A DNA stretch of 64,000 nt from a virus, in the IMG/VR virus record IMGVR_UViG_3300044631_001772, positions 1 through 64,000 of that record. One strand, given 5' to 3'. Each line of letters begins with the position of its first letter. Within the stretch, counting starts at the first letter, position 1. The translations under genes and the position numbers were made by a program. Below the pieces are notes generated by a model that did no database searches, had not been told where the DNA came from, and was given only the letters and a program-made list of their open reading frames with translations. Shown piece after piece: positions 35,607 to 56,889 of the stretch.

Positions 35607-35915
35607 ATGAAATCATTTCAACAGTTTATTTCCGAAAGCATTAATATTGCAGGAGATTTCAATGGAAATCTTTATATGAATTCATCTCAACCAGAGACCG
35701 CAAGCGAATCTTTCCTTGCAGATGTAGTTTGGCAGGGGAGATTATATCGTATGCAAGTTGAAGGTAAGATGATGGATAAAAATCAACTTGCAGAACAACT
35801 ACAAGGAGAATATCCTGGAGCGATTGTTCATAATATATACCCAATAGAATCTAATTCTATAAAAATCAAAAACGCACAAAGATATAGACCAGAAAGATTA
35901 TCGTGGAGTGAATGA
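35607..35915 (+). CDS. candidate capsid-targeted structural protein
   Basis: 102 residues. Begins MKSFQQFISE-S, close to the T4 internal-protein capsid-targeting sequence MKTYQEFIAE-A, and ending in I-S-E, a gp21 protease site of the (L/I)xE form. The mature part would start SINIAGDFNGNLYMNSSQ. FLADVVWQGRLYRMQVEGKM and EYPGAIVHNIYP are conserved in cyanophages. It lies one base after the multi-domain gene and three bases before the next. Likely packaged inside the prohead; inference from the N-terminus. Confidence 0.65.
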   Translation: MKSFQQFISESINIAGDFNGNLYMNSSQPETASESFLADVVWQGRLYRMQVEGKMMDKNQLAEQLQGEYPGAIVHNIYPIESNSIKIKNAQRYRPERLSWSE

Positions 35916-35918
35916 TTA

Positions 35919-37520
35919 ATGGCACAATTTAATAAGAATGACCAGGACTTTCTGAATCAAGAAAGAACCCTTTTTGAAGTCAATATGATTGCCAATAAGA
36001 ATGGCGAAGTAGTTACTATTGATAATCCATTTCCAGTATCTCTTGGAAGTTCCAATATTACTATTAATGGTAGTATTACAATTCCAGGAATAGTAACAGT
36101 TACAAGCACTCCAGATAATCCAATTCATAATCACATAGTTGAAGTTGGGACAGGTGGAACATTAACAACTCCGTATCTTCCAGTCGGTATTTCTACATTA
36201 CTGAATACTGTAGGTATTGGCACCACAGGGCAAGTATCAATCAACCTCAACAATTCACCAGTCAGCACCACAAATCCATTTCCGATTACTGGATCAGTTG
36301 ATATTGAATTACCACCAATAGCAACTGATGCATTTGGTAGACAAAGAATGTCTACTCCACTCACTCTCTTTGATTCATCTCACAGATATAGAGATAATAA
36401 TCTTTGGAGTGGTTTAGTTGTTGGTACTGGTTCAACAGTTGGATTTTCAACAGCACAAGGTTTGATTAATATGACTGTTGGGGTGGGAAGTACCGCATCA
36501 GTCATTAGAGAAACTACAAAAGTATTCTCTTATCAACCGGGAAAATCATTACAGGTATTGAATACATTTGTAATGAATTCAGCAAAAGCAAATCTTCGCC
36601 AAAGAGTAGGATACTATGGTGCAGACAATGGGATGTATCTAGAACTTAATGGAGATACTTTATATTTTGTAGAAAGAACTTATGTTCCTGGAGTTTTAAC
36701 AGAAACTAGAAAATCTCAACACGAATGGAATGTTGATACGATGCTTGGACCTGGGCATCTCAATCCATCTGGTGTCACATTAGATATTTCCAAAGCACAG
36801 ATTATGTGGATGGATATTGAATGGTTAGGACTTGGAACAGTTAGATTGGGTTTTGTAATTGACGGTCAATTCATTCACTGCCATTCATTTCATCACGCAA
36901 ATCTTATCAATACAACTTATATCACAACAGCATCATTACCTTTGAGATATGAGATTGCAAATACTGGAATTACAACGAGTGCAAGCACACTGAAACAAGT
37001 TTGTTCCACTGTAATTTCAGAAGGTGGTTATGAACTTCGTGGATTACAACAAGCAGTAGGAACACCAATTCAAACACCAGTTGATTTAACAACAGCAGGA
37101 ACTTATTATACTGTTTTATCAATTCGTCTCAAAGCAACGCCAAATAGATTGGATGCAATTGTAATTATGACTGCACTTTCTATTCTTGGTATTACAAATA
37201 ATGCAACTTATAACTGGCAAGTAAGAGCAAGTGGAACATCTAATGGCGGAACTTGGAATGATGCTGGTCTTGATAGTTCTGTGGAATATAAAATTGATGG
37301 TGGAACTTATACTGGTGGAAGAATATTAGCATCTGGATATTTGTACGGGTCTAATCAAGGTTCAACACCAGTTGATATTCTTAAAGAGGCATTATTTAAG
37401 TTTCAGTTAGAAAGAGATGCACTAACTGGAACACCTTATGAACTTTCTCTCGTTGCTTCTTCCAATTCTAATGGTGCAGATATTCACGGGTCTATGGACT
37501 GGGAAGAAATTAGTAGGTAA
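35919..37520 (+). CDS. virion structural protein (cyanophage conserved)
   Basis: 533 residues. The first ~130 residues include NKNGEVVTIDNPFPVSLGSS and prolines in PFPITGSVDIELPP. A conserved core begins DAFGRQRMSTPLTLFDSSHR and continues with YQPGKSLQVLNTFVMNSAKA and WMDIEWLGLGTVRLGFVIDG, known in many phages as a structural protein, probably with a jelly-roll or lectin-like beta fold. It could be a head or neck decoration. Lies directly before gp17 in the late operon. The SD is weak. Confidence 0.65.
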   Translation: MAQFNKNDQDFLNQERTLFEVNMIANKNGEVVTIDNPFPVSLGSSNITINGSITIPGIVTVTSTPDNPIHNHIVEVGTGGTLTTPYLPVGISTLLNTVGIGTTGQVSINLNNSPVSTTNPFPITGSVDIELPPIATDAFGRQRMSTPLTLFDSSHRYRDNNLWSGLVVGTGSTVGFSTAQGLINMTVGVGSTASVIRETTKVFSYQPGKSLQVLNTFVMNSAKANLRQRVGYYGADNGMYLELNGDTLYFVERTYVPGVLTETRKSQHEWNVDTMLGPGHLNPSGVTLDISKAQIMWMDIEWLGLGTVRLGFVIDGQFIHCHSFHHANLINTTYITTASLPLRYEIANTGITTSASTLKQVCSTVISEGGYELRGLQQAVGTPIQTPVDLTTAGTYYTVLSIRLKATPNRLDAIVIMTALSILGITNNATYNWQVRASGTSNGGTWNDAGLDSSVEYKIDGGTYTGGRILASGYLYGSNQGSTPVDILKEALFKFQLERDALTGTPYELSLVASSNSNGADIHGSMDWEEISR

Positions 37521-37525
37521 TTTTT

Positions 37526-39226
37526 ATGCCAAATAATGACATCTATCTTGGTAATCCTCTACTAAAAAGAGCAAATACACAAATTCAATTTACGGAAGAA
37601 CAAATTATAGAGTTCTTGAAGTGTAAAGAAGATCCTGTATATTTTGCAAAGAACTATATTAAGATCGTTTCTCTGGATCACGGTCTTGTTCCTTTTGAGA
37701 TGTATCCATTTCAAGAGAAACTTGTAAAAAACTTCCACGAGAATAGATTTAACATTTGTAAGATGCCACGACAGACTGGTAAATCAACCACCTGCGTATC
37801 CTACCTGCTCCACTACGCTGTGTTTAACGATAATGTCAATATTGCCATCTTAGCGAACAAAGCATCCACTGCAAGAGATCTGCTTGGGAGATTACAACTC
37901 GCCTATGAGAACCTACCCAAGTGGATGCAACAGGGCATTATATCTTGGAACAAAGGATCACTCGAATTAGAAAATGGATCAAAAATTTCATCAAACTCTA
38001 CTTCTTCATCTGCTGTCAGAGGCGGATCCTATAATGTCATCTTTTTGGACGAATTCGCATTCATCCCAAATCACATTGCTGATGACTTCTTTGCCTCTGT
38101 TTATCCTACTATTTCTTCTGGTCAAAGCACAAAGGTAATTATTGTTTCTACACCTCGCGGTATGAATCACTTCTACCGCATGTGGCATGACGCTGAGAGG
38201 GGCAAGAACGAATATGTGCCTACAGATGTTCATTGGTCCGAAGTGCCTGGTAGAGACGCTGCCTGGAAGGAGCAGACGATTGCTAACACTAGTGAGCAAC
38301 AGTTTAAGGTTGAGTTTGAATGTGAATTTTTGGGTTCTACAAATACACTCATTAATCCATCAAAACTTAGAAATCTTGTATATGAGGATCCAATTAAAAG
38401 AAATGCTGGATTGGATGTTTATGTTCACCCAAAAGAAGAACATAACTATCTAATTACAGTTGACGTAGCACGTGGTCTCGGAAACGATTACTCGGCATTC
38501 ATTGTCTTTGACATTACGAACTTTCCATATAAAGTTGTAGCAAAATATAGAAATAATGAAATTAAACCAATGCTATTCCCAAGCATTATTCATGAAGTTG
38601 CAAAGGGTTACAATGATGCTTGGTTATTAATCGAAGTTAATGATATTGGAGACCAAGTAGCAAGTATTCTACATTTTGATCTTGAGTATGATAATGTTTT
38701 AATGTGTGCGATGAGAGGTCGTGCTGGTCAAATTGTTGGTTCAGGTTTTAGTGGTAAAAAATCTCAACTTGGGGTAAGAACTACTGCCGCCGTTAAAAAA
38801 CTTGGTTGTTCTAACTTAAAAACTCTATTAGAGGATGATAAGTTACTTACTGTTGACTACGATATTATTTCCGAATTGACAACATTTGCACAAAAGCATA
38901 ATTCTTTTGAAGCAGAGGAAGGTTGTAATGATGACTTAGCAATGTGCTTAGTTATTTTCTCTTGGTTAGTTGCTCAAGATTATTTCAAAGAAATGACGGA
39001 CAATGATGTTCGTAAAAGAATTTATGAAGAACAAAAGAATCAGATTGAACAAGATATGGCACCTTTTGGTTTCATATCAGATGGTTTAGACGACATGGAA
39101 ACGTTTATTGAAGAATCAACTGGAGATAGGTGGTTGCTTGCAACAAAGGATAATGGTATGCAATCAACTGAAGTTTGGAACGTGGATGAATATGGCGACA
39201 GATCCTATATGTGGGAATATCGCTAA
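37526..39226 (+). CDS. 17: large terminase subunit gp17
   Basis: 566 residues (T4 gp17: 610). The packaging motor ATPase-nuclease acts at the portal. Walker A is PRQTGKST (81-88), Walker B VIFLDEF (171-177), and the coupling motif VSTPRG lies near 207-212. The C-terminal nuclease domain begins ITVDVARGLGNDYSAFIVFD with its first catalytic Asp near 314, and GCNDDLAMCL supplies a late acidic residue. Its stop overlaps the next start (TAATG). No intron or intein is present. Confidence 0.95.
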   Translation: MPNNDIYLGNPLLKRANTQIQFTEEQIIEFLKCKEDPVYFAKNYIKIVSLDHGLVPFEMYPFQEKLVKNFHENRFNICKMPRQTGKSTTCVSYLLHYAVFNDNVNIAILANKASTARDLLGRLQLAYENLPKWMQQGIISWNKGSLELENGSKISSNSTSSSAVRGGSYNVIFLDEFAFIPNHIADDFFASVYPTISSGQSTKVIIVSTPRGMNHFYRMWHDAERGKNEYVPTDVHWSEVPGRDAAWKEQTIANTSEQQFKVEFECEFLGSTNTLINPSKLRNLVYEDPIKRNAGLDVYVHPKEEHNYLITVDVARGLGNDYSAFIVFDITNFPYKVVAKYRNNEIKPMLFPSIIHEVAKGYNDAWLLIEVNDIGDQVASILHFDLEYDNVLMCAMRGRAGQIVGSGFSGKKSQLGVRTTAAVKKLGCSNLKTLLEDDKLLTVDYDIISELTTFAQKHNSFEAEEGCNDDLAMCLVIFSWLVAQDYFKEMTDNDVRKRIYEEQKNQIEQDMAPFGFISDGLDDMETFIEESTGDRWLLATKDNGMQSTEVWNVDEYGDRSYMWEYR

Positions 39227-39453
39227 TGGATTTGGAGGAACAGTTTGAAGTAGAACATTTACTTTTTACAGAAAGAAAATGTAGAGTTTGTGGAATGAAA
39301 AAAAATCTAATAGATGGTTTCTATAAAATAAGAAAGAATAATACACTTCTTTCATCATATGCATATGAGTGCAAAGAATGCACCATAAAAAGAGTTGAAG
39401 AATATAGAAAAAAAGATATTTACTCTACAGAATGGAAATATCCTGATTGGTAG
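39226..39453 (+). CDS. small zinc-ribbon protein
   Basis: 75 residues. CRVCGMKKNLIDGFYKI and ECKECTIKRVEEYRKK give a CxxC...CxxC four-cysteine zinc site, and the protein ends YPDW. It is a familiar cyanophage gene between gp17 and gp18. The fold resembles the zinc fingers of HNH endonucleases but there is no nuclease domain. Its ATG overlaps the gp17 stop; an in-frame upstream ATG at 39211 would lie inside gp17. DNA or RNA binding is inferred. Confidence 0.7.
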   Translation: MDLEEQFEVEHLLFTERKCRVCGMKKNLIDGFYKIRKNNTLLSSYAYECKECTIKRVEEYRKKDIYSTEWKYPDW

Positions 39454-39492
39454 ACATTCATGCACCGTTTCCCCAATTAAAAGAACCATTTT

Positions 39493-39500
39493 AATAAATA
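39493..39500 (+). promoter_or_regulatory. late promoter AATAAATA before gp18
   Basis: Differs from the T4 consensus at the first base. Lies 43 bases before the gp18 ATG, whose SD is CGGAG a few bases upstream of the start. Confidence 0.5.
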
Positions 39501-39535
39501 CTTTTAGATAATTCTGGTTAGCACGGAGAATAAAG

Positions 39536-41686
39536 ATGCCGCTAAATTTAGCATCTCCTGGAATTGTAGTAAGGGAAGTTGATTTAACACTTGGAAGAGC
39601 TACTCCTTCATCGGATAAGATTGGTGCCATTGTTGCACCTTTCGCTCAAGGACCTGTAGATTCTCCCACTTTAGTAGAAAATGAGAACGATTTACTTAAT
39701 GTTTTTGGACAACCATATAATGCAGATAAGCACTATGAGCATTGGTTAACAGCATCATCATACCTTGCTTATGGTGGATCTTTAAGAGTTGTTAGAGCAG
39801 ATGATGATGAAATCAAAAATGCTTTTGTAGGAACTGCATCTAGCGTCAAGATCAAGAGTTTGGAGCATTATGAAGCTTTAGGATATGACGAGAACACAAT
39901 TAGTAATGTTGTAGTTACCGCCAAAAACCCAGGTTCTTGGGGTAATGGTATCAATGTTGCCATTATCGATGCCAAGGCAGATCAAATTCTTGGTGTCACA
40001 ACTACTGGCGCTGTTCTTGGGTATGGGGTAACTCAAGCAATTTCTTCTGTTCTTCCAGGAGCAGGTTCAACTTCCGTTTTAAATGGTTACTTAAAAGGAA
40101 TCATTACAGAAATTGGTGTTGGAAAACTTAGTGTAAAAGTTTTAAGTCAAGTATCTGTTGCTGGTACAGAAACAATAGTTGATTATCAACCAAGTGGTGT
40201 TTATACATTTGGGACAGCAGGTAATGTAACTGTTGTAAATGCAAGTGGTGTTGGTGTTGCTACTACATCAGTTTCATCACAAGCAGATTGGTTCGATCAG
40301 CAGACAATTGGTATTACAACCAGTTCAACCATCAATTGGAATAATATTGCACCTAGACCATCTACAACCGCATACGCTGCTGCCAGAAACTCAAGATTTG
40401 ATGAGGTTCACGTTGTAGTTATTGACTCTCTTGGAAAGGTTACAGGTAACGCTGGAACGATTCTTGAAAAGCACCTAGGTCTTTCAAAAGCAACAGATGC
40501 AGAATTCTCAGTAGGTTCACCATCTTACTGGAGAAAGTACATTGCAACCAATTCAGATTACATTTTTGCAGGTGGATCGCCTGTTGGAGTTGTAACTACT
40601 GGATTCAGTTCTGGATATACACTTTCGAGTGATGTTGCTTGGGATCAAGAAGCATCTAATATTACTTTTGCTGCTGCAGGTTCTTCAACCAATACATTAG
40701 GTGGCGGTAAAGATTATGGTGGTGCTTCTGATGTAACAACATCTGGTTCACTCAGCGTATCTTTAGGTAATCTTTCTTCTGGATATGATTTATTTGAAAA
40801 TACCGATAACTTTAAAGTTGACTTCTTATTAATGGGATCTGCAGGTTATAGTAAAGAGACTGCACAGGCTCTTGCTAATAAACTAATCTCTGTTGCAGAA
40901 CTGAGAAAAGATGCAATTGCATTCATTTCACCATATAGAGGTGCTGCTTTAACGGATACTTCATCACAAACTGCAGTTACTATCAATTCAGCAGAAGATA
41001 TTACGACTAATGTTTTATCTTTCTATGCACCTATTACATCATCATCTTATGCAGTATTTGATAGTGGTTATAAGTACATGTACGATAGATTTGCGAACAC
41101 CTTTAGATATGTTCCTCTAAATGGTGATATTGCTGGTCTATGTGCCCGTAATGATATTAACAATTTCCCTTGGTACTCGCCCGCTGGAACTTCTAGAGGT
41201 GCGATTTTAAACGCAGTGAAACTGGCGTATAACCCATCCAAATCTCAAAGAGATCGTCTTTATACTAGTAGAATTAATCCAGTTATCTTCTCACCTGGTG
41301 CAGGAATTATTCTGTTTGGTGATAGAACTGGACTTGCAAAGGCATCTGCATTTGATCGCATCAATGTTCGTAGACTATTTGTTTATGTTGAAGATGCAAT
41401 TTCTCAGGCTGCTAAAGATCAACTCTTCGAATTTAATGATGAGATTACAAGAACAAACTTTGTAAATACAATTGAACCTTTCCTCCGTGATGTTCAGGCA
41501 AAGAGAGGAATCTCTGATTATGTTGTTATTTGTGATGAAACAAATAACACTGCTGCAGTAATTGATAACAATGAATTTGTAGCAGATGTTTATATCAAAC
41601 CAGCAAGATCAATTAACTTCATTGGTCTTACTTTCATCGCCACTAAGACTGGTGTTTCGTTTGAAGAAGTAATCGGCAATTTCTAA
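39536..41686 (+). CDS. 18: tail sheath protein gp18
   Basis: 716 residues (T4 gp18: 659). N-terminal LASPGIVVREVDLTLGRATP, the internal YGGSLRVVRADDDEIKNAFV, GSWGNGINVAIIDA, and C-terminal NPVIFSPGAGIILFGDRTGL, ASAFDRINVRRLFVYVEDAI are diagnostic of contractile sheath proteins. The middle (about 160-400) is an expanded beta-rich protrusion domain exposed on the sheath. Good SD. Followed by gp19 after a 20-base gap. Confidence 0.95.
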   Translation: MPLNLASPGIVVREVDLTLGRATPSSDKIGAIVAPFAQGPVDSPTLVENENDLLNVFGQPYNADKHYEHWLTASSYLAYGGSLRVVRADDDEIKNAFVGTASSVKIKSLEHYEALGYDENTISNVVVTAKNPGSWGNGINVAIIDAKADQILGVTTTGAVLGYGVTQAISSVLPGAGSTSVLNGYLKGIITEIGVGKLSVKVLSQVSVAGTETIVDYQPSGVYTFGTAGNVTVVNASGVGVATTSVSSQADWFDQQTIGITTSSTINWNNIAPRPSTTAYAAARNSRFDEVHVVVIDSLGKVTGNAGTILEKHLGLSKATDAEFSVGSPSYWRKYIATNSDYIFAGGSPVGVVTTGFSSGYTLSSDVAWDQEASNITFAAAGSSTNTLGGGKDYGGASDVTTSGSLSVSLGNLSSGYDLFENTDNFKVDFLLMGSAGYSKETAQALANKLISVAELRKDAIAFISPYRGAALTDTSSQTAVTINSAEDITTNVLSFYAPITSSSYAVFDSGYKYMYDRFANTFRYVPLNGDIAGLCARNDINNFPWYSPAGTSRGAILNAVKLAYNPSKSQRDRLYTSRINPVIFSPGAGIILFGDRTGLAKASAFDRINVRRLFVYVEDAISQAAKDQLFEFNDEITRTNFVNTIEPFLRDVQAKRGISDYVVICDETNNTAAVIDNNEFVADVYIKPARSINFIGLTFIATKTGVSFEEVIGNF

Positions 41687-44735: not shown

Positions 44736-45386
44736 ATGAAACTCATCACAGAAGAAGTCTCACAAGTAAAATTCATCACCGAAGGAAAAGGTGCTGAAAA
44801 GAAAATGTATATTGAGGGAGTTTTCCTTCAGGGTGATATTTGCAATCGTAATGGAAGAATGTATCCTATGCAAACTCTTGCCCGCGAGGTAAAAAGATAT
44901 AACGAAGCATTTGTTTCTAAGGGTCGTGCTCTTGGAGAACTTGGACATCCTGATGGTCCTACCGTCAATCTTGACCGTGTTTCTCATAAAATTGTTTCTC
45001 TTGAACAAAAGGGAACCAATTTCATCGGTAAAGCACAACTTCTTGGAACTCCAATGGGTAAGATTGCAGAATCTTTAATCAAAGAAGGAGTTTGTCTTGG
45101 TGTTTCTTCTCGTGGTGTTGGTTCACTCAAGATGACCAACGAAGGTCATAAAATTGTTGGTGAAGATTTTATGCTAGCAACTGCTGCAGATATCGTTGCC
45201 GATCCCTCTGCTCCTGATGCTTTTGTTCAGGGAATTATGGAAGGTAAAGAGTGGGTTTGGGAAGGAGGAATTCTTCGCGAAAAACTTGCCGAGTCAACTA
45301 AGCGTAGAATTAATACCTTAGTTAATGAAAAGACTCTTCAGGAACATAAAGTACAATTGTTCCAACAGTTTCTTTCAAATCTATAA
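44736..45386 (+). CDS. 21: prohead core protein and protease gp21
   Basis: 216 residues (T4 gp21: 212). Serine protease with a herpesvirus-assemblin-like fold that matures the prohead. GRALGELGHPDGPTVNLDRV carries the catalytic His (71) and CLGVSSRGVGSL the Ser (124/125). GKIAESLIKEG and AADIVADPSAPDAFVQGIME are conserved. In T4 it cleaves after (L/I)xE, which bears on the N-terminal peptides of gp23 and several accessory proteins here. Followed by a late promoter and gp22. Confidence 0.94.
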   Translation: MKLITEEVSQVKFITEGKGAEKKMYIEGVFLQGDICNRNGRMYPMQTLAREVKRYNEAFVSKGRALGELGHPDGPTVNLDRVSHKIVSLEQKGTNFIGKAQLLGTPMGKIAESLIKEGVCLGVSSRGVGSLKMTNEGHKIVGEDFMLATAADIVADPSAPDAFVQGIMEGKEWVWEGGILREKLAESTKRRINTLVNEKTLQEHKVQLFQQFLSNL

Positions 45387-45427: not shown

Positions 45428-46585
45428 ATGTCCGTTGGTAGAAATTTACAAGAAATGGAAAACGTAGTAACCAAAGGGGCTGCACCTGCCGAACCAATGC
45501 ACAAATTAACTGGAGCAACTCCAGGTCAAACTGCTGGTTGGGAAGATCTTGGTGGTCCTACTCCAGAAAATTATCGTCCAGATGACGAGTCAGCACATCT
45601 CAAAACTCCAACTCTTGCTCAGGTAAGAAATGTAGTCAATGCCAAGGCAGCGGCTGCTGAACCTATGAAGACTGTGGCAAAGGAAGAGACTGAAGAGGAT
45701 GAGGATCTTATTGATGAAGAAGAGATTCTCGAAGATGAAGAGGAAGTAGTTGCTGAGGCGGCTGAGGAGGAAGAGGAAGAGGAGGAGGAAGAGGAAGAGG
45801 AAGAGGAAGAAGAAGAGGGTGGCAAGAAAAAGGGCAAAAAGAAAATGGAAGAAGAGTTCGACATCGATGAAGATGTCAATGCTCTTCTTGCTGGCGAAGA
45901 ACTCTCCGAAGAGTTCCAAGAAAAAGCACGTACTATTTTTGAAGCAGCAATCAGATCAAAGGTTGTTGAAATCAAAGAGTCTCTACAAAATGCTTATGAG
46001 CATACACTTGTAGAAGAAATCGAAGCAATCAAGGAAAGCCTCACCAGTAGAGTTGATGCTTATCTTGAGTATGTTGCTGACGAGTGGATCCAAGAAAATG
46101 CACTCGCAGTTGAGCACGGTCTTAAGACCGAAATGACTGAATCATTCCTTGTTGGAATGAAGCAACTTTTTGAAGATCATTATGTAACAATCCCTGAAGA
46201 TAGATATGATGTAATCGAGAATATGGTAGATAAACTTGATGAAATGGAAGGAAAACTCAACGAGCAAATCGAAAGAAATGTTGCTCTGAATAGAAGATTA
46301 GCGGAGTCAGTTGCTGATGTAATTTTTGCAGATGTCGCTGAGGGGCTTGCACTTTCTCAGAAGGACAAACTCGCTTCTCTTGCCGAAAATGTTGAGTTTG
46401 ATGGTGAAGAGAGCTATCGTGAGAAACTGGTAACTCTGAGGGAATCATACTTCCCAACCAGAACTACTGGTGCTCAAAGAAACGCTAGTGAAAATTTGTC
46501 TGAGGAAACCAATTTGAATATTCAATCAGTCGGTGGCACCATGGGTGCATATCTTCAGACTCTCCAAAGAGTTTCTAAAAAGTGA
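45428..46585 (+). CDS. 22: prohead core scaffold gp22
   Basis: 385 residues (T4: 269). Helical internal scaffold, degraded by gp21 on maturation. Residues about 85-140 are a nearly uninterrupted acidic run (a GAG/GAA tract near 45765-45815) ending in GGKKKGKKK. The C-terminal helical half (MTESFLVGMKQLFEDHYVTI, RYDVIENMVDKLDEMEGKL) is the conserved gp22 region. The acidic insertion makes it larger than T4's. Followed by gp23. Confidence 0.9.
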   Translation: MSVGRNLQEMENVVTKGAAPAEPMHKLTGATPGQTAGWEDLGGPTPENYRPDDESAHLKTPTLAQVRNVVNAKAAAAEPMKTVAKEETEEDEDLIDEEEILEDEEEVVAEAAEEEEEEEEEEEEEEEEEEGGKKKGKKKMEEEFDIDEDVNALLAGEELSEEFQEKARTIFEAAIRSKVVEIKESLQNAYEHTLVEEIEAIKESLTSRVDAYLEYVADEWIQENALAVEHGLKTEMTESFLVGMKQLFEDHYVTIPEDRYDVIENMVDKLDEMEGKLNEQIERNVALNRRLAESVADVIFADVAEGLALSQKDKLASLAENVEFDGEESYREKLVTLRESYFPTRTTGAQRNASENLSEETNLNIQSVGGTMGAYLQTLQRVSKK

Positions 46586-46635: not shown

Positions 46636-48036
46636 ATGCAAATGTTCAATACCGAGCAATTGCAGGAGAAGTGGGCACCGCTCCTAGACTACGACGGTCT
46701 GGATCCTATCAAAGATTCACATCGTAGAGCTGTAACCGCAATCCTGCTCGAAAACCAAGAGAGAATCATCCGCGAAGAGCGCGAGTTCCTCTATGAGTCA
46801 CCAACTAATAGCACAGGAACCAGCACTGGAGCTGGTACTGGATTTAGTGCTGGTAGCACCGGCGCTATGCAAGGTTTCGATCCCGTACTGATCTCACTGA
46901 TCCGTCGTTCGATGCCTAACCTGATCGCCTATGATCTCTGTGGCGTTCAACCAATGAACGGTCCTACCGGACTGATCTTCGCAATGCGTTCACGCTACAC
47001 CAACCAGTCTGGAACTGAAACCTTCTACAACGAAGTAGATTCAGCATTCTCTGGTCAGAGTGCATCGTTCGATCAAGTCGAAGGATGGACGAGTGGTGCT
47101 GTTGGTATGGGTACTACTGCCCAGCAAGGTCTCAACCCTTCAGTTCTAAGTCCAACAAACCAGACTGCTAACGCTACCGGCGCTGATATCTACAACGTCG
47201 GTCAGGGCATGAGAACTGACAACGCAGAATCGCTTGGCGAATCTGATGCGTTTAACCAGATGGCATTCTCGATTGAGAAAGTCACCGTTACCGCTAAGTC
47301 ACGCGCCCTCAAGGCTGAGTACTCACTTGAGCTTGCTCAGGACCTCAAGGCAATCCACGGTCTGAATGCTGAGGCTGAACTCGCAAATATTCTCTCAACT
47401 GAGATTCTTGCTGAGATCAACCGCGAAGTTATCAGAACCATCTACAAGATTGCTAAGCCTGGTGCTCAAGTAAATACCGCTACCGCTGGTACTTTTGACC
47501 TCGACGTTGACTCCAACGGTCGTTGGTCGGTTGAGAAGTTCAAGGGTCTTATCTTCCAAATCGAGCGCGATGCAAACGCAATTGCACAGCAAACTCGTAG
47601 AGGAAAGGGCAACACTATCCTTTGCTCCGCTGACGTTGCTTCAGCACTTGCAATGGCTGGTGTTCTCGATTACACCCCTGCACTCAACGCTAACCTGAAC
47701 GTTGATGATACCGGTAACACCTTCGCTGGTGTTCTCCAAGGTAAGTATCGCGTATACATTGACCCATATTCGGCAAACGTATCTGCTAACCAGTTCTACG
47801 TTGTCGGTTATAAGGGTTCTAGCCCATATGATGCTGGTCTGTTCTATTGCCCATATGTACCTCTCCAGATGGTACGTGCAGTTGGCGAGAACACCTTCCA
47901 GCCTAAGATCGGCTTTAAGACCCGTTATGGAATGGTTGCAAACCCATTCGCTGAGGGTCTTAACCCAGGTGCAGGTGCTCTGACCACCAATGCAAACACC
48001 TACTACAGAAGAGTCAAGGTTGCTAACCTGATGTGA
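46636..48036 (+). CDS. 23: major capsid protein gp23
   Basis: 466 residues (T4: 521). HK97-fold subunit. MFNTEQLQEKWAPLLDYDGL, a propeptide, then EREFLYE-SPTNST. L52-Y-E54 is a gp21 cleavage site, so mature protein should start at Ser55. FDPVLISLIRRSMPNLIAYD, CGVQPMNGPTGLIFAMRSRY and the C-terminal PFAEGLNPGAGALTTNAN are diagnostic. SD AGAGG lies 12 bases before the ATG; a second ATG follows two codons later. Codons are much richer in CTG, ATC, CGT and AAC than in adjacent genes, as expected for very high expression. No gp24 paralogue in this window. Confidence 0.96.
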   Translation: MQMFNTEQLQEKWAPLLDYDGLDPIKDSHRRAVTAILLENQERIIREEREFLYESPTNSTGTSTGAGTGFSAGSTGAMQGFDPVLISLIRRSMPNLIAYDLCGVQPMNGPTGLIFAMRSRYTNQSGTETFYNEVDSAFSGQSASFDQVEGWTSGAVGMGTTAQQGLNPSVLSPTNQTANATGADIYNVGQGMRTDNAESLGESDAFNQMAFSIEKVTVTAKSRALKAEYSLELAQDLKAIHGLNAEAELANILSTEILAEINREVIRTIYKIAKPGAQVNTATAGTFDLDVDSNGRWSVEKFKGLIFQIERDANAIAQQTRRGKGNTILCSADVASALAMAGVLDYTPALNANLNVDDTGNTFAGVLQGKYRVYIDPYSANVSANQFYVVGYKGSSPYDAGLFYCPYVPLQMVRAVGENTFQPKIGFKTRYGMVANPFAEGLNPGAGALTTNANTYYRRVKVANLM

Positions 48037-48083: not shown

Positions 48084-48091
48084 TCTAAATA
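48084..48091 (+). promoter_or_regulatory. late-promoter-like TCTAAATA
   Basis: One mismatch to TATAAATA, two bases after the T-run of the gp23 terminator and 19 bases before the ATG at 48103. Confidence 0.4.
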
Positions 48092-48102: not shown

Positions 48103-48633
48103 ATGAAAACATTTAGAGAGTTTTTATCGGAATCTCAAGTTTTGGCATATAAAAACTATAAACCAGGAGTTCTTGATAAGAAAACTGGAAAATTTACACC
48201 AAGATCTCATAGTGATACTGAACAAAAAAGATATGGTTGGAAACCTGTAAAGGTCAGTTCTTATAGTAAAGCAGATACTCCAGGTTCATTGACAGCAAGT
48301 GGAGAACGTTTTAATGATAAGCAAAGATTAGTTGCCGTTCCATATGCATCAAGAACTAGTACTAAACCTTCAGCACCATTTGGTACAAAGCTGCAAATGA
48401 CAATGGCACCAGGGACAAAAGCACCTGTTGCAACAACTAAAGTATCCGATACTGGTAATTTTGGACCTGCTGGAGATTATAATCGTTCAACAAACTACGA
48501 TTTGGCATTACAAACAGCTCGAGATGTTTCAGGTAATCCAAAAATTACATCAAGTGATTTTGGAAAAAGAACAATTTACGTGAAAACTGCTCAGAATCCG
48601 CAAACAGCAAAAGTAAAACCCAATAAGAGGTAA
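48103..48633 (+). CDS. capsid-targeted double-psi beta-barrel (3D/RlpA-like) protein, candidate
   Basis: 176 residues. MKTFREFLSE-S resembles the T4 capsid-targeting sequence and ends in L-S-E, a gp21 site. The mature part contains KVSSYSKADTPGSLTASGER, LVAVPYASRT, PFGTKLQMTM and VSDTGNFG, the order of motifs in 3D/RlpA-type double-psi barrels (T-A-S-G, VAVP, PFGT, D-x-G), a fold used by lytic transglycosylases and expansin-like proteins. It could be a peptidoglycan-active protein carried in the head. It stands just after the gp23 terminator and just before gp3. The C-terminus is basic. Confidence 0.6.
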   Translation: MKTFREFLSESQVLAYKNYKPGVLDKKTGKFTPRSHSDTEQKRYGWKPVKVSSYSKADTPGSLTASGERFNDKQRLVAVPYASRTSTKPSAPFGTKLQMTMAPGTKAPVATTKVSDTGNFGPAGDYNRSTNYDLALQTARDVSGNPKITSSDFGKRTIYVKTAQNPQTAKVKPNKR

Positions 48634-51536: not shown

Positions 51537-51585
51537 ATCCTTATCTTCAAAAGCAACAAAGCAATTCTACTCGTATTTTCATACC

Positions 51586-51614: not shown

Positions 51615-51646
51615 AAACAAAAGTTATATTAAATGAGTCCAATGCC

Positions 51647-52165
51647 ATGCCCAAGAAAAAAACTGAACATTATGTAAACAATAAAGAATTATTAGAAGCG
51701 ATGATCGTTTATCGCTCTAAGGTTGAAAGTTCTTTTCTTAAAAAGTATGATAGAGCACCAACTAAACAGGATAGGGGAAAGCATTGGGAAGGTAAACCAC
51801 CAATTCCAAACTATCTTGGCGAATGTTTTCTAAAAATTGCGACTCATTTATCATACAAACCAAATTTTGTAAATTATATGTTTCGTGAGGATATGATTTC
51901 TGACGGAATTGAAAATTGTGTTCAATATATTCATAACTTTGATCCTGAGAAGTCAAAGAATCCTTTTGCTTATTTTACTCAAATCATTCACTACGCATTT
52001 TTGAGAAGAATTCAAAAAGAGAAGAAGCAACTAGATATTAAGACTAAGATTATCGAACGAACTGGGTTTGATGAGGTTATGATGATAGATGACAACTTGC
52101 TTTCTGGAAGCAATTCGGAGTATAATAGTATGAAGGACAATATCCAGTATCGCAGTAACCGATGA
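51647..52165 (+). CDS. 55: late-transcription sigma factor gp55
   Basis: 172 residues (T4: 185). Directs host RNA polymerase to TATAAATA promoters with gp33 and the gp45 clamp. YVNNKELLEAMIVYRSKVES, IPNYLGECFLKIATHLSYKP, NFVNYMFREDMISDGIENCV, QYIHNFDPEKSKNPFAYFTQ and IIHYAFLRRIQKEKKQLDIK are the sigma-region-2-like core. Transcribed from its own strong promoter. Overlaps gp47 by 4 bases, so early/middle expression of 55-47-46 is likely linked. Confidence 0.95.
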   Translation: MPKKKTEHYVNNKELLEAMIVYRSKVESSFLKKYDRAPTKQDRGKHWEGKPPIPNYLGECFLKIATHLSYKPNFVNYMFREDMISDGIENCVQYIHNFDPEKSKNPFAYFTQIIHYAFLRRIQKEKKQLDIKTKIIERTGFDEVMMIDDNLLSGSNSEYNSMKDNIQYRSNR

Positions 52166-53199
52166 AGGTAGCAATTTTAACTGACAGTCATTATGGGGCA
52201 AGGAAGGGTTCAAAATACCTCCACGACCACTTTGAACTCTTCTATAAAAATGTCTTCTTTCCTGCCCTTGAAGAACATGGGGTAGAGGCAGTCATTCATA
52301 TGGGTGATGCATTTGATAGTCGCAAATCAATTGATTATCAAAGTCTTGAATGGGCAAAGCGTGTTGTATTTGAACCTCTGCGAGATTATGATGTTCATAT
52401 GATTATTGGTAATCACGATTGCTATTATAAGAATACCAATAGTGTTAACTCTCCAAGTTTGCTTCTTCAAACTTATCCTAATGTTCGCACTTATAGTTCT
52501 CCACAGACTATTAAAGTTGGTGGTCTGGATATTATGATGGTTCCCTGGATTTGTAGTGAGAACTATGATGAAACTCTCAATCAAATCAAAAAGACCAAAG
52601 CAAAGATTGCAATGGGGCACTTAGAACTTAAAGGTTTCCGTGTAAATCGAAATTTGATTATGGAGGAACATGGACTGGATTCGAATATTTTTTCAAACTT
52701 CACAAAGGTATTTTCTGGTCATTACCACACTCGTTCTGATAATGGACGCATTTTCTATCTTGGTAATCCTTATGAAATGTACTGGACAGATGTGAATGAT
52801 ACTCGCGGTTTTCATATCTTTGATACAGAAACATTAGAACACATTCCAGTCAATAATCCTTATAAATTGTTTTACCACATTTATTATGAGGATACGCCAT
52901 ATCAGTTATTTGACGCTACCGAATATGAAAATAAAATTGTTAAAGTGATTGTTCGCAAAAAATCTAAACCAAAAGATTTTGAGAAATTCATCGACAAACT
53001 TTATACTGCTGGCATTCAAGAACTCAAAATTGTTGAGAACTTTGACATTCAAGAAAGTGAAGATTTTGAAATTGATGAAGAGGAAAGCACCATTTCAATT
53101 TTGAATAGATATATTGATGAGGCAGAGTTTGAGTTTGATAAGAATGTCATCAAAGGAATCTTTCAAGACCTCTATAAACAATCTTGCGAAGTAGAGTAA
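52162..53199 (+). CDS. 47: recombination endonuclease subunit gp47 (Mre11-like)
   Basis: 345 residues (T4: 339). Metallophosphoesterase nuclease that works with gp46 in end resection and host DNA breakdown. Metal-binding motifs: DSHYG (8-12), GDAFDSR (48-54), GNHD (83-86), GHLELKG (152-158), GHYHTR (186-191). The C-terminal part (acidic, 300-345) would bind gp46. ATGA overlap with gp55. Confidence 0.95.
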   Translation: MKVAILTDSHYGARKGSKYLHDHFELFYKNVFFPALEEHGVEAVIHMGDAFDSRKSIDYQSLEWAKRVVFEPLRDYDVHMIIGNHDCYYKNTNSVNSPSLLLQTYPNVRTYSSPQTIKVGGLDIMMVPWICSENYDETLNQIKKTKAKIAMGHLELKGFRVNRNLIMEEHGLDSNIFSNFTKVFSGHYHTRSDNGRIFYLGNPYEMYWTDVNDTRGFHIFDTETLEHIPVNNPYKLFYHIYYEDTPYQLFDATEYENKIVKVIVRKKSKPKDFEKFIDKLYTAGIQELKIVENFDIQESEDFEIDEEESTISILNRYIDEAEFEFDKNVIKGIFQDLYKQSCEVE

Positions 53200-53475
53200 A
53201 TGTTTCTTCTTACACTCAAGGACAGAAAAGACGACGGAGCATATGCAGTTCAGGACCAGTACGGTCATAAGGTCCTATTTCTTTTTGAGAAAGAAGATGA
53301 TGCAACTCGTTATGCCTTGATGTTAGAAGATCAAGAAGAAACTGAAATGGAAGTTGTAGAAGTTGATGATGAGCTTGCAATCAAGACTTGTAAGATGTAT
53401 AATTACCGTTATGCTGTAATCACTCCTGACGATATCGTTATTCCTCCTAAGAATGCTAGTATTTCACAAGATTAA
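53200..53475 (+). CDS. DUF3110-like small protein between gp47 and gp46
   Basis: 91 residues. MFLLTLKDRKDDGAYAVQDQ, VLFLFEKEDDATRYALMLED and VVEVDDELAIKTCKMYNYRY are close to the short DUF3110 proteins of cyanobacteria, and a homologue sits at the same point in many cyanophages. Starts immediately after the gp47 stop and overlaps gp46 by 23 bases in another frame, so it is firmly part of the 55-47-46 operon. Function unknown; a small ferredoxin-like fold is likely. Confidence 0.7.
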   Translation: MFLLTLKDRKDDGAYAVQDQYGHKVLFLFEKEDDATRYALMLEDQEETEMEVVEVDDELAIKTCKMYNYRYAVITPDDIVIPPKNASISQD

Positions 53476-55168
53476 ATGGAAAAATTTTCTTTCTACTGGA
53501 AATCAGTGGACAGAAGTTGATTTTGAAAAACACCATACAAATTTAATTATTGGAACGAATGGTGCAGGTAAGTCCACAATCTTGGATGCACTTACTTTTG
53601 TTCTTTTCAACAAACCATTTAGGCGGATTAATAAACCGCAACTGGTTAATACTACCAACGAAAAAGATTGTCTTGTAGAGATTGAGTTCTCTGTGAATAG
53701 TCGAGATTATCTTGTTCGTCGTGGGATTAAACCAAATATTTTTGATATTGAGGTTAATGGTAATCTTCTTCATAAAGAAGCGGATGATAGGGCAAATCAA
53801 AGAATATTAGAAGAAAATATTCTTAAAGTAAATTATAAGTCTTTTACTCAAATTGTAATTTTGGGTAGTAGTACTTTTGTCCCGTTCATGCAATTGACTA
53901 CTTCTAATCGTCGAGAGGTCATTGAAGATCTTTTGGATATTCGTATTTTTTCTGCGATGAACAATCTCATTAAGGATAAAATTCGTGAGAAAAAAGACCA
54001 GATTAAATCTCTTGAACTTAAGAAAGAAACTCTTAAGGATAAGATGAAGATGCAACAGAGTTTCATTGAGGAACTTGAAAATCGTGGTAATGCCAATATC
54101 AATGCCAATAAAGAAAAGATTGTCAATTTAGATGCAGAAGTTGGCATTTATATGACCGAAAGTGCCAAAACCGAAGAGCAGATTTTTACCTATACTAAAG
54201 AGCAGGAAGAACTCATTGGTGCCGATGATAAGTTAGTAAAACTAAACAATCTTAAGGGCAAAATATCACAGAAAGTATCTGCTATTACCAAAGAACATAA
54301 GTTTTTCACAGAAAATACGGTCTGCCCCACTTGCACTCAAACAATTGAAGAAGAGTTTAGGTTAAATAGAATTGTACACGCTCAAAATAAAGCAAAGGAA
54401 CTCCAGAAAGGTTTTCAAGAACTTGAGGAGACTATAAAGTTAGAACAAGAACGAGAGCGTCAATTCGCAGTTCTATCCAAGGAGATTACGAAACTCAACC
54501 ATGAGATTTCTCAAAACAATACTCGCATTTCACTCAACCAGAGACAAATCCGAGACCTTGAATCTGAAATTCAAACTATTACCCAAAACCTTGCAAACAG
54601 AAATACTGAGCATGAGAAGTTAGAAGAATTTCAAACCAATCTCCAAAAAACATTCGAAGACCTTTCAAAGAAAAAAGAAGAAATCGTTTATTACGATTTT
54701 GCCTATTCCTTACTCAAGGACGATGGCGTTAAAACGAAGATAATCAAGAAGTATCTTCCGTTTATAAATCAGCAGGTGAATCGTTATCTTCAGATGATGG
54801 ATTTTTATATTAATTTTGAATTGGATTCTGAATTTAATGAGAGTGTTAAGTCACCTATTCATGAAGATTTCTCATACTCTTCATTTTCTGAAGGTGAAAA
54901 GGCAAGAATTGATTTGAGTTTGCTGTTTGCTTGGCGTGAAGTTGCAAGAGTCAAAAACTCCGTAAATTGCAATATTCTTTTATTTGACGAAGTTTTTGAC
55001 TCTTCTCTTGATGGTTTTGGTGCGGATGAATTTTTAAAAATTATTAGATATGTGGTTAAAGATACTAATGTTTTTGTAATTTCTCATAAAACAGACCTTC
55101 AAGATAAGTTTGATACGACTCTAAAATTTGAAAAGAAAAAAGGATTTTCTTATAAAACTGAATTATAA
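53453..55168 (+). CDS. 46: recombination endonuclease subunit gp46 (Rad50/SbcC-like)
   Basis: 571 residues (T4: 560). SMC-like ATPase partner of gp47. N-terminal KWKNFLSTGNQWTEVDFEKH, Walker A GTNGAGKST (34-42), a long coiled coil with a zinc hook CPTC (291-294), the ABC signature FSEGEKARIDLSLLFAW, and Walker B NILLFDEVFDSSLD. All catalytic parts are intact. The start overlaps the preceding small gene. A gap with no late promoter follows. Confidence 0.95.
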   Translation: MLVFHKIKWKNFLSTGNQWTEVDFEKHHTNLIIGTNGAGKSTILDALTFVLFNKPFRRINKPQLVNTTNEKDCLVEIEFSVNSRDYLVRRGIKPNIFDIEVNGNLLHKEADDRANQRILEENILKVNYKSFTQIVILGSSTFVPFMQLTTSNRREVIEDLLDIRIFSAMNNLIKDKIREKKDQIKSLELKKETLKDKMKMQQSFIEELENRGNANINANKEKIVNLDAEVGIYMTESAKTEEQIFTYTKEQEELIGADDKLVKLNNLKGKISQKVSAITKEHKFFTENTVCPTCTQTIEEEFRLNRIVHAQNKAKELQKGFQELEETIKLEQERERQFAVLSKEITKLNHEISQNNTRISLNQRQIRDLESEIQTITQNLANRNTEHEKLEEFQTNLQKTFEDLSKKKEEIVYYDFAYSLLKDDGVKTKIIKKYLPFINQQVNRYLQMMDFYINFELDSEFNESVKSPIHEDFSYSSFSEGEKARIDLSLLFAWREVARVKNSVNCNILLFDEVFDSSLDGFGADEFLKIIRYVVKDTNVFVISHKTDLQDKFDTTLKFEKKKGFSYKTEL

Positions 55169-55190
55169 GACACTTTCTCAACTGGACTCC

Positions 55191-55219
55191 TTGACTTCCG
55201 TAAATACAGATAGTAATCT
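55191..55219 (+). promoter_or_regulatory. possible early promoter TTGACT-N17-TAATCT
   Basis: A good -35 (TTGACT) and exact 17-bp spacing, but a poor -10. Would start about 15 bases before the ATG at 55241. Confidence 0.35.
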
Positions 55220-55240
55220 GTCCTCACAAGCACAAGACTA

Positions 55241-55375
55241 ATGCAAGTCCCCAACCGCTACCATCATTCTAAAAAGGAGCAGAAGCGGAAACTGAAACCG
55301 CAAGCACTTCGACAAGCAAAGGCACGACGCCAAGCACTCAAGAAAAAGCACTCCGAAAGGGGTGTTTTTTTATAA
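55241..55375 (+). CDS. 44-residue very basic peptide
   Basis: MQVPNRYHHSKKEQKRKLKP followed by QALRQAKARRQALKKKHSER and a GVFL end. About half the residues are Lys, Arg or His and it should form one amphipathic helix; it may bind nucleic acid or host RNA polymerase (inference from charge). Its last codons are also the 3' arm and T-run of a terminator, and its stop lies inside a TATAAATA box. The weak RBS lowers confidence; it may instead be a leader region. Confidence 0.5.
   Translation: MQVPNRYHHSKKEQKRKLKPQALRQAKARRQALKKKHSERGVFL
55349..55371 (+). terminator. intrinsic terminator fused to a late promoter
   Basis: CACTCC (55349-55354), GAAA loop, GGGGTG (55359-55364; one G-T pair), then seven T. 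The last T is the first base of TATAAATA. Confidence 0.85.
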
Positions 55376-55378
55376 ATA
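55371..55378 (+). promoter_or_regulatory. late promoter TATAAATA, cassette copy A
   Basis: Exact consensus sharing a base with the terminator T-run and starting 27 bases before the ATG at 55398. The leader to the ATG is nearly the same as at 56293-56319. Confidence 0.8.
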
Positions 55379-55397
55379 ACTCAAAAGTACTTGAAAG

Positions 55398-56291
55398 ATG
55401 AAAGTGAAAGAATATCTAGAATTAGTTGAGGCATATCAAAAAGTTTATGAACAACAAATTGGAGTTCCTTTAAAAGAACCAACTGATCGTGCTGCAAAGG
55501 ATCAACTTGAAAAAATGATACCCAAAGGAGAAAAGGTTCACACATTCAAGGGTGGGCTGCAAAAAGCACATTATGAACTAGAAGGTGAAGTTCTTGATGA
55601 AGATCTTTATGATGAAGTTTTAGATTATCTTATTAATGAGGGATGTACTTTAGAAGAATCAAACTATATTATGTCTTACGTTGTGGAACAAGGAATGAAT
55701 CCACAGGAAGTAATTGGTAGAGGAATTGCAAATATTCTTGGATTTGATAAACCACATCCAACTCAGGTTTTTGCCCAAGGATTGAGAAAAATGCTCTATC
55801 CAAATAAACCAAAAGAAGTTAAAGCTCCTAAAGCACCTGCTCCTAAAATAACAAAAACTGCTTCTCCAGCAGCAAAACCACCAGCACCAACAAAACCAAA
55901 TCCATATAGACCTGGTGCTACAGTTAGAGCAACTGGACCAAATATGGATAAGTTTCCAGAACTTCAACGATTTGCTGGACAGGCAAGAAAAGTTGCTGAA
56001 CCAGTTGCTAAAACTGCTGGTGCCGTTTCTGCGCTAAGAAATATTGCCAGTTCTGGTCGTGTTGGTGCTGCTGCTCCTGCTGCTGCTGTAATGGCACCCA
56101 AACCAGTTGGTGATGCCACATTAACTGGTGCTCTTAAGAGAGGAGATTATAAACCAAAACAAGGACCAAAAAATCCAGATCAAGGTTTGACTAGAGCACA
56201 GTCTTTTGATAAGGCATATAAAACAGCAAAACAGAAGAGTGGAATGGGTTCTACTTTTACTTGGAACAACAAATCTTATAAGGTTGCTTAA
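55398..56291 (+). CDS. candidate capsid-targeted internal protein A
   Basis: 297 residues. MKVKEYLELVE-AYQKVYEQ has an L-V-E site at residue 11, a gp21-type cut. The body has a helical region (YDEVLDYLINEGCTLEESNY, IMSYVVEQGMNPQEVIGRGI), then a Pro/Ala/Lys-rich linker (about 132-175) and an Ala-rich basic part, ending TFTWNNKSYKVA, a tail seen in other cyanophage proteins. Basic and flexible, in keeping with a packaged DNA-associated protein. Late promoter with a 14-base leader. Paralogous N-terminus and leader with 56320. Confidence 0.6.
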   Translation: MKVKEYLELVEAYQKVYEQQIGVPLKEPTDRAAKDQLEKMIPKGEKVHTFKGGLQKAHYELEGEVLDEDLYDEVLDYLINEGCTLEESNYIMSYVVEQGMNPQEVIGRGIANILGFDKPHPTQVFAQGLRKMLYPNKPKEVKAPKAPAPKITKTASPAAKPPAPTKPNPYRPGATVRATGPNMDKFPELQRFAGQARKVAEPVAKTAGAVSALRNIASSGRVGAAAPAAAVMAPKPVGDATLTGALKRGDYKPKQGPKNPDQGLTRAQSFDKAYKTAKQKSGMGSTFTWNNKSYKVA

Positions 56292-56292
56292 T

Positions 56293-56300
56293 TATAAATA
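56293..56300 (+). promoter_or_regulatory. late promoter TATAAATA, cassette copy B
   Basis: Exact consensus directly after the stop of protein A, 27 bases before the ATG at 56320, with the same leader except three bases. Confidence 0.8.
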
Positions 56301-56319
56301 ACTAAAAAGTAGTTGTAAG

Positions 56320-56889
56320 ATGAACTCAAAAGAACTTCGTGCCCTTCAAGAAGCCTATCAGCAAGTTTATTCTTCTCAAGAGGAAGTAGAGCAACTTGAT
56401 GAAGGTAGAACAACGAGTCTCAGTGCTCTTTCACGTGAATCTCAAAAGCGTAAAGAAGATAAGGAAAGAGGAAGACCAGAAACTAAGTCTGAAACTCACG
56501 GCAGATTAATGTTGGGTAAATTCCGTCCAGGAGCTTCTAAAGAGGAGAGAGCAGAAGGTGGTCGTGAGAGACTTAGAGATAGGGGAAAAGTTCCTAAAAA
56601 AGGCGGTAAAGATATGTTTGAGCATATCTTGGAGCACCTAGTTGCCGAAGGTTATGCTGACACCAACAATGCAGCACTTGCTATTATGGCAAACATGAGT
56701 GAAGAGTGGAGGCAGAGTATTATTGAGCAAACCGCAAGAATTGATTATGTTCAGGATAAATTTAATCGTCAAAATGCTGAAAAATCTGGATCAGGTCTTA
56801 CTTATATTCCAGGAAAACAAAATGCTGGACAAGCATTACAAAAGGCCAAAGAGTCTGCAAGACAAATGGGAAAACTTGAAGGTGCGTGA
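56320..56889 (+). CDS. candidate capsid-targeted internal protein B
   Basis: 189 residues. MNSKELRALQE-AYQQVYSSQ: L-Q-E at residues 9-11 gives a gp21-type site at the same place as in protein A, with the same AYQxVY after it. The next part is charged and Arg/Lys/Glu-rich (38-95). A helical domain FEHILEHLVAEGYADTNNAA, LAIMANMSEEWRQSIIEQTA is a motif found in several cyanophage proteins of unknown function. The end is KQNAGQALQKAKESARQMGK. Probably injected with the DNA; not proven. Confidence 0.6.
   Translation: MNSKELRALQEAYQQVYSSQEEVEQLDEGRTTSLSALSRESQKRKEDKERGRPETKSETHGRLMLGKFRPGASKEERAEGGRERLRDRGKVPKKGGKDMFEHILEHLVAEGYADTNNAALAIMANMSEEWRQSIIEQTARIDYVQDKFNRQNAEKSGSGLTYIPGKQNAGQALQKAKESARQMGKLEGA

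Follow-up and report, generated by a model that had tools for sequence, protein, structure and literature searches.

Do cyanophages of the T4 type send proteins into their heads with the N-terminal address that T4 uses for its internal proteins? The question is raised by a 64,000-nucleotide stretch (the window) of IMG/VR virus record IMGVR_UViG_3300044631_001772, a 73,979-base fragment of a T4-like cyanophage genome, in which an earlier note had picked out five N-termini (the fifth only tentatively), named here by the position of their first base, as one set of T4-type leaders on unrelated proteins packed in the head and injected. The capsid-targeting sequence (CTS) of the T4 internal proteins IPI, IPII and IPIII goes back to Mullaney and Black 1996 (summarised in PMC9026906). 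By the T4 mutagenesis reviewed there, residues 4 and 7 of the leader act mainly in targeting and residues 8 and 10 in processing, and Asp at position 10 blocks processing but not targeting. All five open reading frames (ORFs) and their starts were found exactly where they had been placed (a slash marks the proposed cut):

35607..35915, + strand: CTS-bearing protein MKSFQQFISE/S, 102 residues, phrog_1742; the leader fits the strict pattern, stable presence in virions is unsupported
35607..35636, + strand: CTS leader, codons 1-10 (MKSFQQFISE), a match to the strict pattern
48103..48633, + strand: predicted head cargo with CTS leader MKTFREFLSE/S (strict pattern) and a double-psi beta-barrel body (predicted fold), 176 residues
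48103..48132, + strand: CTS leader, codons 1-10 (MKTFREFLSE), strict pattern, with positions 4, 7, 8 and 10 as in T4
55398..56291, + strand: class-2-leader protein MKVKEYLELVE/AYQKVY with a helical module, 297 residues
56320..56889, + strand: class-2-leader protein MNSKELRALQE/AYQQVY with a helical module, 189 residues
59992..60126, + strand: ORF starting MSRFTDLLQE/T, 44 residues, without support as cargo

The five fall into three groups, as 35607 and 48103 share M-K-[ST]-F-x-x-F-[IL]-S-E/S, 55398 and 56320 carry another leader, and 59992 stands alone. In our reading, to which we give a probability of about 78%, 35607 and 48103 start with a genuine T4-type CTS, and in T4-like cyanophages and related phages many protein bodies bear it as a portable tag; docking, cleavage and ejection would follow by analogy with T4. 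A T4-type targeting peptide with a gp21-type ending is thus upheld for 35607 and 48103, whereas the strict form does not fit the starts of 55398, 56320 and 59992. The five are no single set, since 55398 and 56320 carry the separate leader of what is mostly one modular family and 59992 is unsupported. The earlier idea is therefore partly supported: two of the five N-termini bear it out, it reaches well beyond the window, and it is weak for 35607 as stable cargo.

The strict CTS was defined as M-K-x-[FY]-x-x-F-hydrophobic-x-E and searched at the DNA level as ATGAARNNNTWYNNNNNNTTYNTNNNNGAR, with the same pattern read backwards as control. In twelve whole records (11 named phages and the record of the window) it matched 24 times, with hits in every record except that of S-PM2, as compared to none for the control, and a frame of at least 54 residues is open from each of the 24 matched ATGs. 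T4 served as positive control, where the matches were ipII, ipIII and gp61.1. In the 73,979-base record of the window only 35607 and 48103 matched (backward control 0), that is 2 of the 153 ATG ORFs of at least 40 residues on both strands of the window, and the motif occurred at none of the 176,057 internal positions of three cyanophage proteomes. The strict leader of 35607 and 48103 is beyond chance. The T4 match gp61.1 (AF158101 18966-19130; loci L193 and L236; 54 residues, hypothetical) starts MKTFKEFIKE/D with an acidic mature form, isoelectric point (pI) 5.0, and is a possible further T4 internal protein.

In IMG/VR a narrower pattern found at least 120 stretches vs 56 for the backward pattern in a full scan, and from these at least 120 matches 119 forward loci were taken on for analysis. 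Of 115 uncut matches among those listed, 111 begin an open frame of at least 50 residues at their ATG, and two positions that the pattern leaves free were biased: the residue after E10 was A or S in 64/118 (54%, vs 14.5% background) and position 6 was Q or E in 76/118 (matches below 25 residues dropped, 118 of 124 kept). When proteins below 45 residues were dropped, the 114 leader proteins kept among the matches listed fell into 54 body clusters by BLASTP of the bodies at 1e-4, some of which distant homology may join; with one protein per cluster, A or S followed E10 in 23/54 and Q or E stood at position 6 in 33/54. The same leader thus heads 54 clusters of different bodies, which is the modularity expected of T4-type CTS internal proteins. 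Some leader proteins matched Pfam families, namely CTP_transf_like (NMNAT), S-AdoMet_lyase, GNAT acetyltransferase, HD_4, HNH, HicA_toxin with DUF6321, methyltransferase, NTP_transf_2 and DUF6267, and most tagged bodies gave no domain match in the Pfam search. The leader co-occurs with T4-type genes: T4-core genes of the window's record were present in 60/119 forward loci (among the matches listed) vs 5/56 control loci. The mature IMG/VR leader proteins had a median pI of 9.4, above 8 in 72/106 (again among the matches listed). Labels given by eye to ART-like bodies (L262 and the first ORF of L271) and a kinase-like body (L272) were dropped because they had no Pfam match at E≤0.01.

The NMNAT can be regarded as a natural fusion. 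Among eleven cyanophage NMNATs chosen regardless of leader (S-CREM2, S-SZBM1, S-SCSM1, Syn9, P-SSM2, S-PM2, P-SSM4, S-RIM2, ACG-2014d, P-RSM4 and ACG-2014f) ten carry the leader, that of S-SZBM1 being one residue shorter, and two further tagged NMNATs, from S-SRM01 and S-CRM01, were found through the pattern. The NMNAT of the jumbo phage RaK2, the sole non-cyanophage example read, starts directly at the catalytic domain. NMNAT matches occur in 531 phage records, of which the leader comparison covers those named, and in the 73,979-base fragment that holds the window no strict match falls on an NMNAT. Sullivan 2010 places this protein (T4-GC190) in the cyanophage core and reports it from S-SM1 virions; it was among the proteins undetected in S-PM2 virions, in a study that also missed several true structural proteins.

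Published virion proteomes connect the leader with particles. In S-CREM2, where the virion set is 52 of 219 proteins (PMC10665884 Table 3), the strict leader is on 5/52 virion vs 0/167 other proteins, the five being SAM hydrolase gp6, gp13, the APH-like kinase gp14, gp136 and NMNAT gp154. In S-SCSM1, with 48 of 282 proteins flagged as virion proteins in GenBank MK867354 (the paper states 45), it is on 1/48 virion (NMNAT, MKSFLQFLKE/A) vs 1/234 other proteins. Pooled with the 30-protein virion set of S-SZBM1 (PMC9146016 Table 1), this gives 6/130 virion vs 2/589 other proteins (p=6e-4), and both non-virion hits belong to the 35607 family. The leader is therefore carried by bodies, including NMNAT, SAM hydrolase/lyase and an APH-like kinase, that were detected in virion preparations. 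The Cas9-annotated virion nuclease gp12 of S-CREM2 (L006:7704-10313) has a CTS-like LRFASFMAE/A at residues 17-25 and not at its start, possibly because translation starts at another codon or because the leader is shifted. Close to the leader gene 35607, a large protein just upstream (window 34085-35605) ends at its C-terminus in a DUF6321 domain, a domain also found on a CTS-bearing HicA-toxin-like protein (L303:12007-12630), and the C-terminus of the virion-detected S-CREM2 gp137 is similar, by eye, to the DUF6321-ended protein.

In the window the canonical leader of 48103 directly abuts its body. IMG/VR holds 88 relatives of 48103, and in a table of 42 loci hand-picked from 80, 37 start M[KR][TS][FY]xxF. 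Of these 37 leaders, 31 have degenerate residues, often C and D, at positions 8/10, and a new [LIVC]xE at residues 12-20 accompanies 28/31 degenerate vs 2/6 canonical leaders (p=0.007), or, with [LI]xE only, 20/31 vs 0/6; this association is indicative only, because the sequences are related and non-independent. In some relatives (L069, L089) the body is preceded by a DUF3008 module in place of the CTS. S-SCSM1_93 (L177:31627-31836), a small free protein that looks DUF3008-like by eye, carries the virion flag in S-SCSM1. In S-SRM01 the slot after gp23, where the window has 48103, holds a protein of 56 residues (L001:22034-22204) with the leader-like start MKSFQQFQED... and no double-psi beta-barrel body.

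The body of 48103 is predicted to be a double-psi beta-barrel (DPBB) with an expansin/RlpA-type fold. In an AlphaFold model (pLDDT 84.6) residues 45-165 match double-psi beta-barrels, with Foldseek E=1e-6 against 4avr (TM-score 0.46 by query, 0.80 by target) and VIA Z 12.3 (rmsd 2.5 over 94); the baseplate-initiator domain 8kea of cyanophage A-1(L) gave VIA Z 11.7 at 28% identity, kiwellins and expansins Z 9-11, and MltA Z 7.6, a level that the tool calls possibly unspecific. The RlpA label of this fold group is our assumption, apart from one annotated protein of S-SZBM1 mentioned below. By sequence, no Pfam family matched 48103, 55398 or 56320 at E≤0.1, and the DPBB_1 profile reached E=0.08 in 1 of 36 members of the 48103 family, short of a match to a curated family; PHROGs gave a weak phrog_7930 (E=0.0033) and a PDB sequence search one weak match (E=0.21). 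Mature 48103 is strongly basic (pI 10.2), as T4-type internal proteins are.

The closest named relative of this phage is Synechococcus phage S-SRM01 (79.9% identity over 75% of a 22-kb query), and the gene order of the window, terS-terL-gp18-gp19-gp20-gp21-gp22-gp23-tail tube-uvsY-uvsW, is that of S-SRM01. The gp21-type prohead protease and a gp23 with an FLYE/S site, both named in the earlier note, were found, and the protease shares the genome with the CTS genes 35607 and 48103, as in T4-type systems. At the corresponding place in gp23, 7/7 phages compared have the form [FLI]L[YSTA]E/[AS], which is also the form of the CTS leader end and by analogy would be the maturation site. For transcription we scored [CA]TAAATA, which we take to be the T4-like late promoter, within 100 nt before the ATG. 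It stands upstream of 48103, 55398, 56320 and 59992, none lies within 100 nt before 35607, and 26 of 34 members of the 48103 family with enough upstream sequence have it. The head genes and the motifs are as follows:

44736..45386, + strand: gp21-type prohead protease, the predicted cleaving enzyme (Peptidase_S77 PF03420, E=3.2e-36; phrog_207, head maturation protease)
45428..46585, + strand: gp22-type scaffold, the predicted CTS receptor in the core (position as the S-SRM01 head scaffolding protein; receptor role by inference from T4)
46636..48036, + strand: gp23 major capsid protein with the FLYE/S site (putative maturation site, after T4)
48085..48091, + strand: late-promoter-like CTAAATA, 18 nt before 48103
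55372..55378, + strand: late-promoter-like ATAAATA, 26 nt before 55398
56294..56300, + strand: late-promoter-like ATAAATA, 26 nt before 56320

The class-2 leader, [LI]-x-E-[AS]-Y-x-x-[VI]-Y, allows a reading other than a tag. In 55398 and 56320 it consists of 11 residues ending in [LV]-x-E/A, followed by Y-Q-x-V-Y. Instead of being packaging tags, these leaders may belong to the conserved N-terminus of a single family, structural or scaffold-binding, in which Y-x-x-[VI]-Y is functional, and we regard the chances of this as even. The conservation may be descent and not a tag, as most bodies belong to a single modular family: the class-2 motif retrieved 32 distinct proteins, 28 of which fall in one cluster, so common descent alone suffices, and the motif runs past the proposed cut. 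Near the start, [LI]xE[AS]Y, the form expected of a gp21 site, is kept in 17 of 21 loci homologous to 56320, but it is missing in the other four (one with F for Y), and the S-SRM01 relative MNSQQVQDIRLMYEAVYNSQ lacks LxE; on the side of a tag, S-PRM1 has the hybrid-like leader MKTYNQFVLE/AYAVY. E stands at residue 11 in 24/32, a table in which only spacing, E over D and L among hydrophobics are informative, since a hydrophobic residue, [ED], [AS], Y, [VIL] and Y were all built into the search motif.

The class-2 leader and its helical module recur in the virion-flagged S-SCSM1_89. For 56320 the pairwise match was E=1e-6 in the module and E=7e-4 in the leader, and E=7.6e-4 against 719 proteins; for 55398, where the leader has V-x-E, the module matched at E=2e-5 pairwise, with no match at E≤0.01 against 719 proteins. 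Because S-SCSM1_89 resembles 56320 in leader and module, and 55398 more weakly, sequence likeness suggests that both probably belong to a virion-associated family, and that the class-2 leader possibly ends in a site cut by gp21. PHROGs assigned 56320 to phrog_3708 and phrog_22522 (function unknown) and 55398 to none, and a PDB sequence search with 56320 gave no match. A weak 18-residue match (E=0.054) between S-CREM2 gp111 and S-CRM01 g292 as class-2 homologues was not used. In S-SRM01 a class-2-like start without LxE (L001:32328-33236) comes directly after a phrog_459 peptidase gene, whereas in the window the class-2 genes precede that gene (window 57814-59961). L220, L222 and L058 each have two or three different genes with class-2 leaders close together in a short locus, like 55398 and 56320 in the window.

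For 35607 the serious rival to cargo is a transient role in the core, in which the CTS would target the protein, gp21 would cut it and the maturing head would lose it; we hold this to be a real prospect, if somewhat short of an even chance. Its leader is highly conserved, F7, E10 and S11 being the same in all 31 distinct relatives that protein search brought up (a recount from protein-search loci only, one of the six search peptides being the leader; an earlier table of 57 sequences had been restricted to MK.[FY] and had counted in loci picked out by the CTS pattern). Nevertheless, the homologues S-SZBM1_191 and S-SCSM1_30 were undetected in virions (30 proteins and 48 flagged proteins, respectively) in the two of three proteomes that encode the family. 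In addition, 35607 is acidic (pI 5.4), unlike the basic T4 internal proteins, and PMC9026906 describes T4 core proteins, gp67 and gp68, that the mature head has lost in part or altogether. A small protein of ~10 kDa is, on the other hand, easily missed in shallow data, as the S-SZBM1 mass spectrometry reported only 30 proteins. We therefore class 35607 only as CTS-bearing and not as an internal protein; its structure model was poor (pLDDT 69.9). Of the earlier expectation that tagged proteins reside in heads, the part that stands is the leader on virion-detected S-CREM2 and S-SCSM1 proteins, whereas the 35607 family was undetected in both proteomes encoding it.

The failure to detect 35607 homologues in virions and the acidity of 35607 weigh against our reading of the leader as a cargo tag, and so do several further observations. 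S-CREM2 gives 5 of the 6 virion hits and shaped the strict pattern; its leaders were seen before the pattern was fixed, so it is no independent test, and without it the counts are 1/78 virion vs 2/422 other proteins, with no enrichment evident. In S-SZBM1 the strict leader is on 0/30 virion vs 1/188 other proteins, the virion-detected cytidylyltransferase (NMNAT), which starts MRFRQFIIE/A, fits the strict form only with a shift of one residue, and SSZBM1_192, which starts MKTFKQYITE/A, is among the proteins undetected in these virions. The whole record of S-PM2 has no strict match, and its NMNAT shows no leader in the stretch read, the first seven residues lying outside it. The three proteomes hold no close relative of 48103, a family found among phages in three records of two phages, neither of them among the three used (DSL-LC03 and S-PRM1 are cultured phages that encode it); the weak BLASTP match S-SZBM1_29 (E=0.003), annotated RlpA and without a CTS, was undetected in virions. 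Finally, the authors of the S-CREM2 (PMC10665884) and S-SCSM1 studies caution that non-structural proteins may be carry-over from the lysate.

This caution leads to another explanation, in which the tagged proteins are abundant late products that contaminate virion preparations, and the leader serves another function, e.g. binding free scaffold. The scarce enrichment outside S-CREM2 would agree with it. The late-type [CA]TAAATA, which speaks for this explanation and for our own reading alike, stands upstream of 71/149 CTS-leader ORFs vs 228/1095 among the remaining ATG ORFs with 100 residues or more (the latter called mechanically, with false ORFs among them). We consider contamination improbable; against it are the leader on 5/52 virion but 0/167 other proteins of S-CREM2, and its match to the leaders of T4 IPII and IPIII, which are head proteins in the literature. 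That the strict leader is a product of chance or composition is hardly credible, given the 24 vs 0 matches, the empty internal positions and the bias at the free positions 6 and 11, and the uninformative loose motif is all that speaks for it.

That loose motif, [LI]-x-E with E at residue 10-12, follows the spirit of the earlier note, which named equal frequency in non-virion proteins as the finding that would count against its claim; on the three cyanophage proteomes it occurred in 10/130 virion vs 24/589 other proteins (p=0.07), so the claim is given up and the motif was rejected as a cargo marker. Chance is refuted for the strict leader, but not for 59992, which had no match at E≤1 in the phages collection (50,697 records) and does not match the strict form, and was rejected as tagged cargo.

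Taken together, our results favour a T4-type CTS on 35607 and 48103 and on many other bodies. By analogy with T4, the aromatic residues 4 and 7 of the leader would dock the protein, late in infection, to the core that the gp22 scaffold forms in the prohead, gp21 would cut after E10, guided by the hydrophobic residue 8 and E10, to free the mature body inside the head, and the body would be ejected together with the DNA. We lean, by a small measure, towards the wider view that a T4-type address code is a general delivery system of T4-like cyanophages and their environmental relatives, with [LI]xE[AS]Yxx[VI]Y as a second leader for a second virion family. If so, the virion would be loaded with pre-made enzymes whose action precedes the expression of phage genes; NMNAT, which is encoded by a cyanophage core gene, might counter the depletion of NAD and SAM lyase would counter restriction, with kinases, acetyltransferases, HD, HNH and HicA-like proteins also among the delivered cargo, and the cargo repertoire and injected early-action proteins of uncultured T4-like phages would be readable from sequence alone. 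The enzymes that proteomics keeps finding in cyanophage virions (NMNAT, SAM hydrolase, kinase) could so far be either cargo or contamination, and the leader offers both a mechanism and a sequence test; it may also serve as a tag to bring reporters into the heads of cyanophages.

Existing raw spectra could test this reading without new virions. The leader-containing peptides of S-CREM2 are DFDSFLEEFDR (gp6) and NFSSFLTEADEK (gp154). At the N-terminus of S-SCSM1_91 the leader-containing fully tryptic peptide EAAESGASVQAK stands against AAESGASVQAK, the form predicted for a gp21 cut after E10, and for S-SCSM1_89 the predicted cut form is AYAAVYSNTVEETYTVTAADK and its uncut counterpart TFNSLSEAYAAVYSNTVEETYTVTAADK.

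The principle is known from T4, and a wider use has been proposed before, as PMC9026906 suggests CTS-like proteins in the relatives of the T-even phages and a CTS that may serve T4-like phages to package a range of proteins. Its extension to enzymes of cyanophages is apparently undescribed: no CTS report for cyanophages was found by title or abstract opening in the open-licence PMC literature, which leaves its absence unproven, and the sections considered of the papers on virion NMNAT mention no packaging leader.

Among known systems, the expansin/MltA/RlpA-type DPBB proteins and 8kea resemble residues 45-165 of 48103 in predicted fold, and 48103 differs from RlpA/DPBB proteins in having no curated Pfam match. 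With the S-SCSM1_89 family 56320 shares leader and helical module of ~40 residues, 55398 more weakly. The cyanophage NMNAT/cytidylyltransferase (T4-GC190), detected in virions of S-CREM2, S-SZBM1 and S-SCSM1 according to the published tables and flags, has the same leader as the strict CTS proteins. From the T4 internal proteins those of the window differ in host and in body (the bodies were not compared by search), and 35607 also in its acidity and in being unseen in virions of relatives. In the address itself they agree, as 35607 and 48103 have the 10-residue leader of T4 with an aromatic residue 4, F7, a hydrophobic residue 8 and E10; mature 48103 is basic like the T4 internal proteins, and the gp21, gp22 and gp23 types of T4 are all present in the window.

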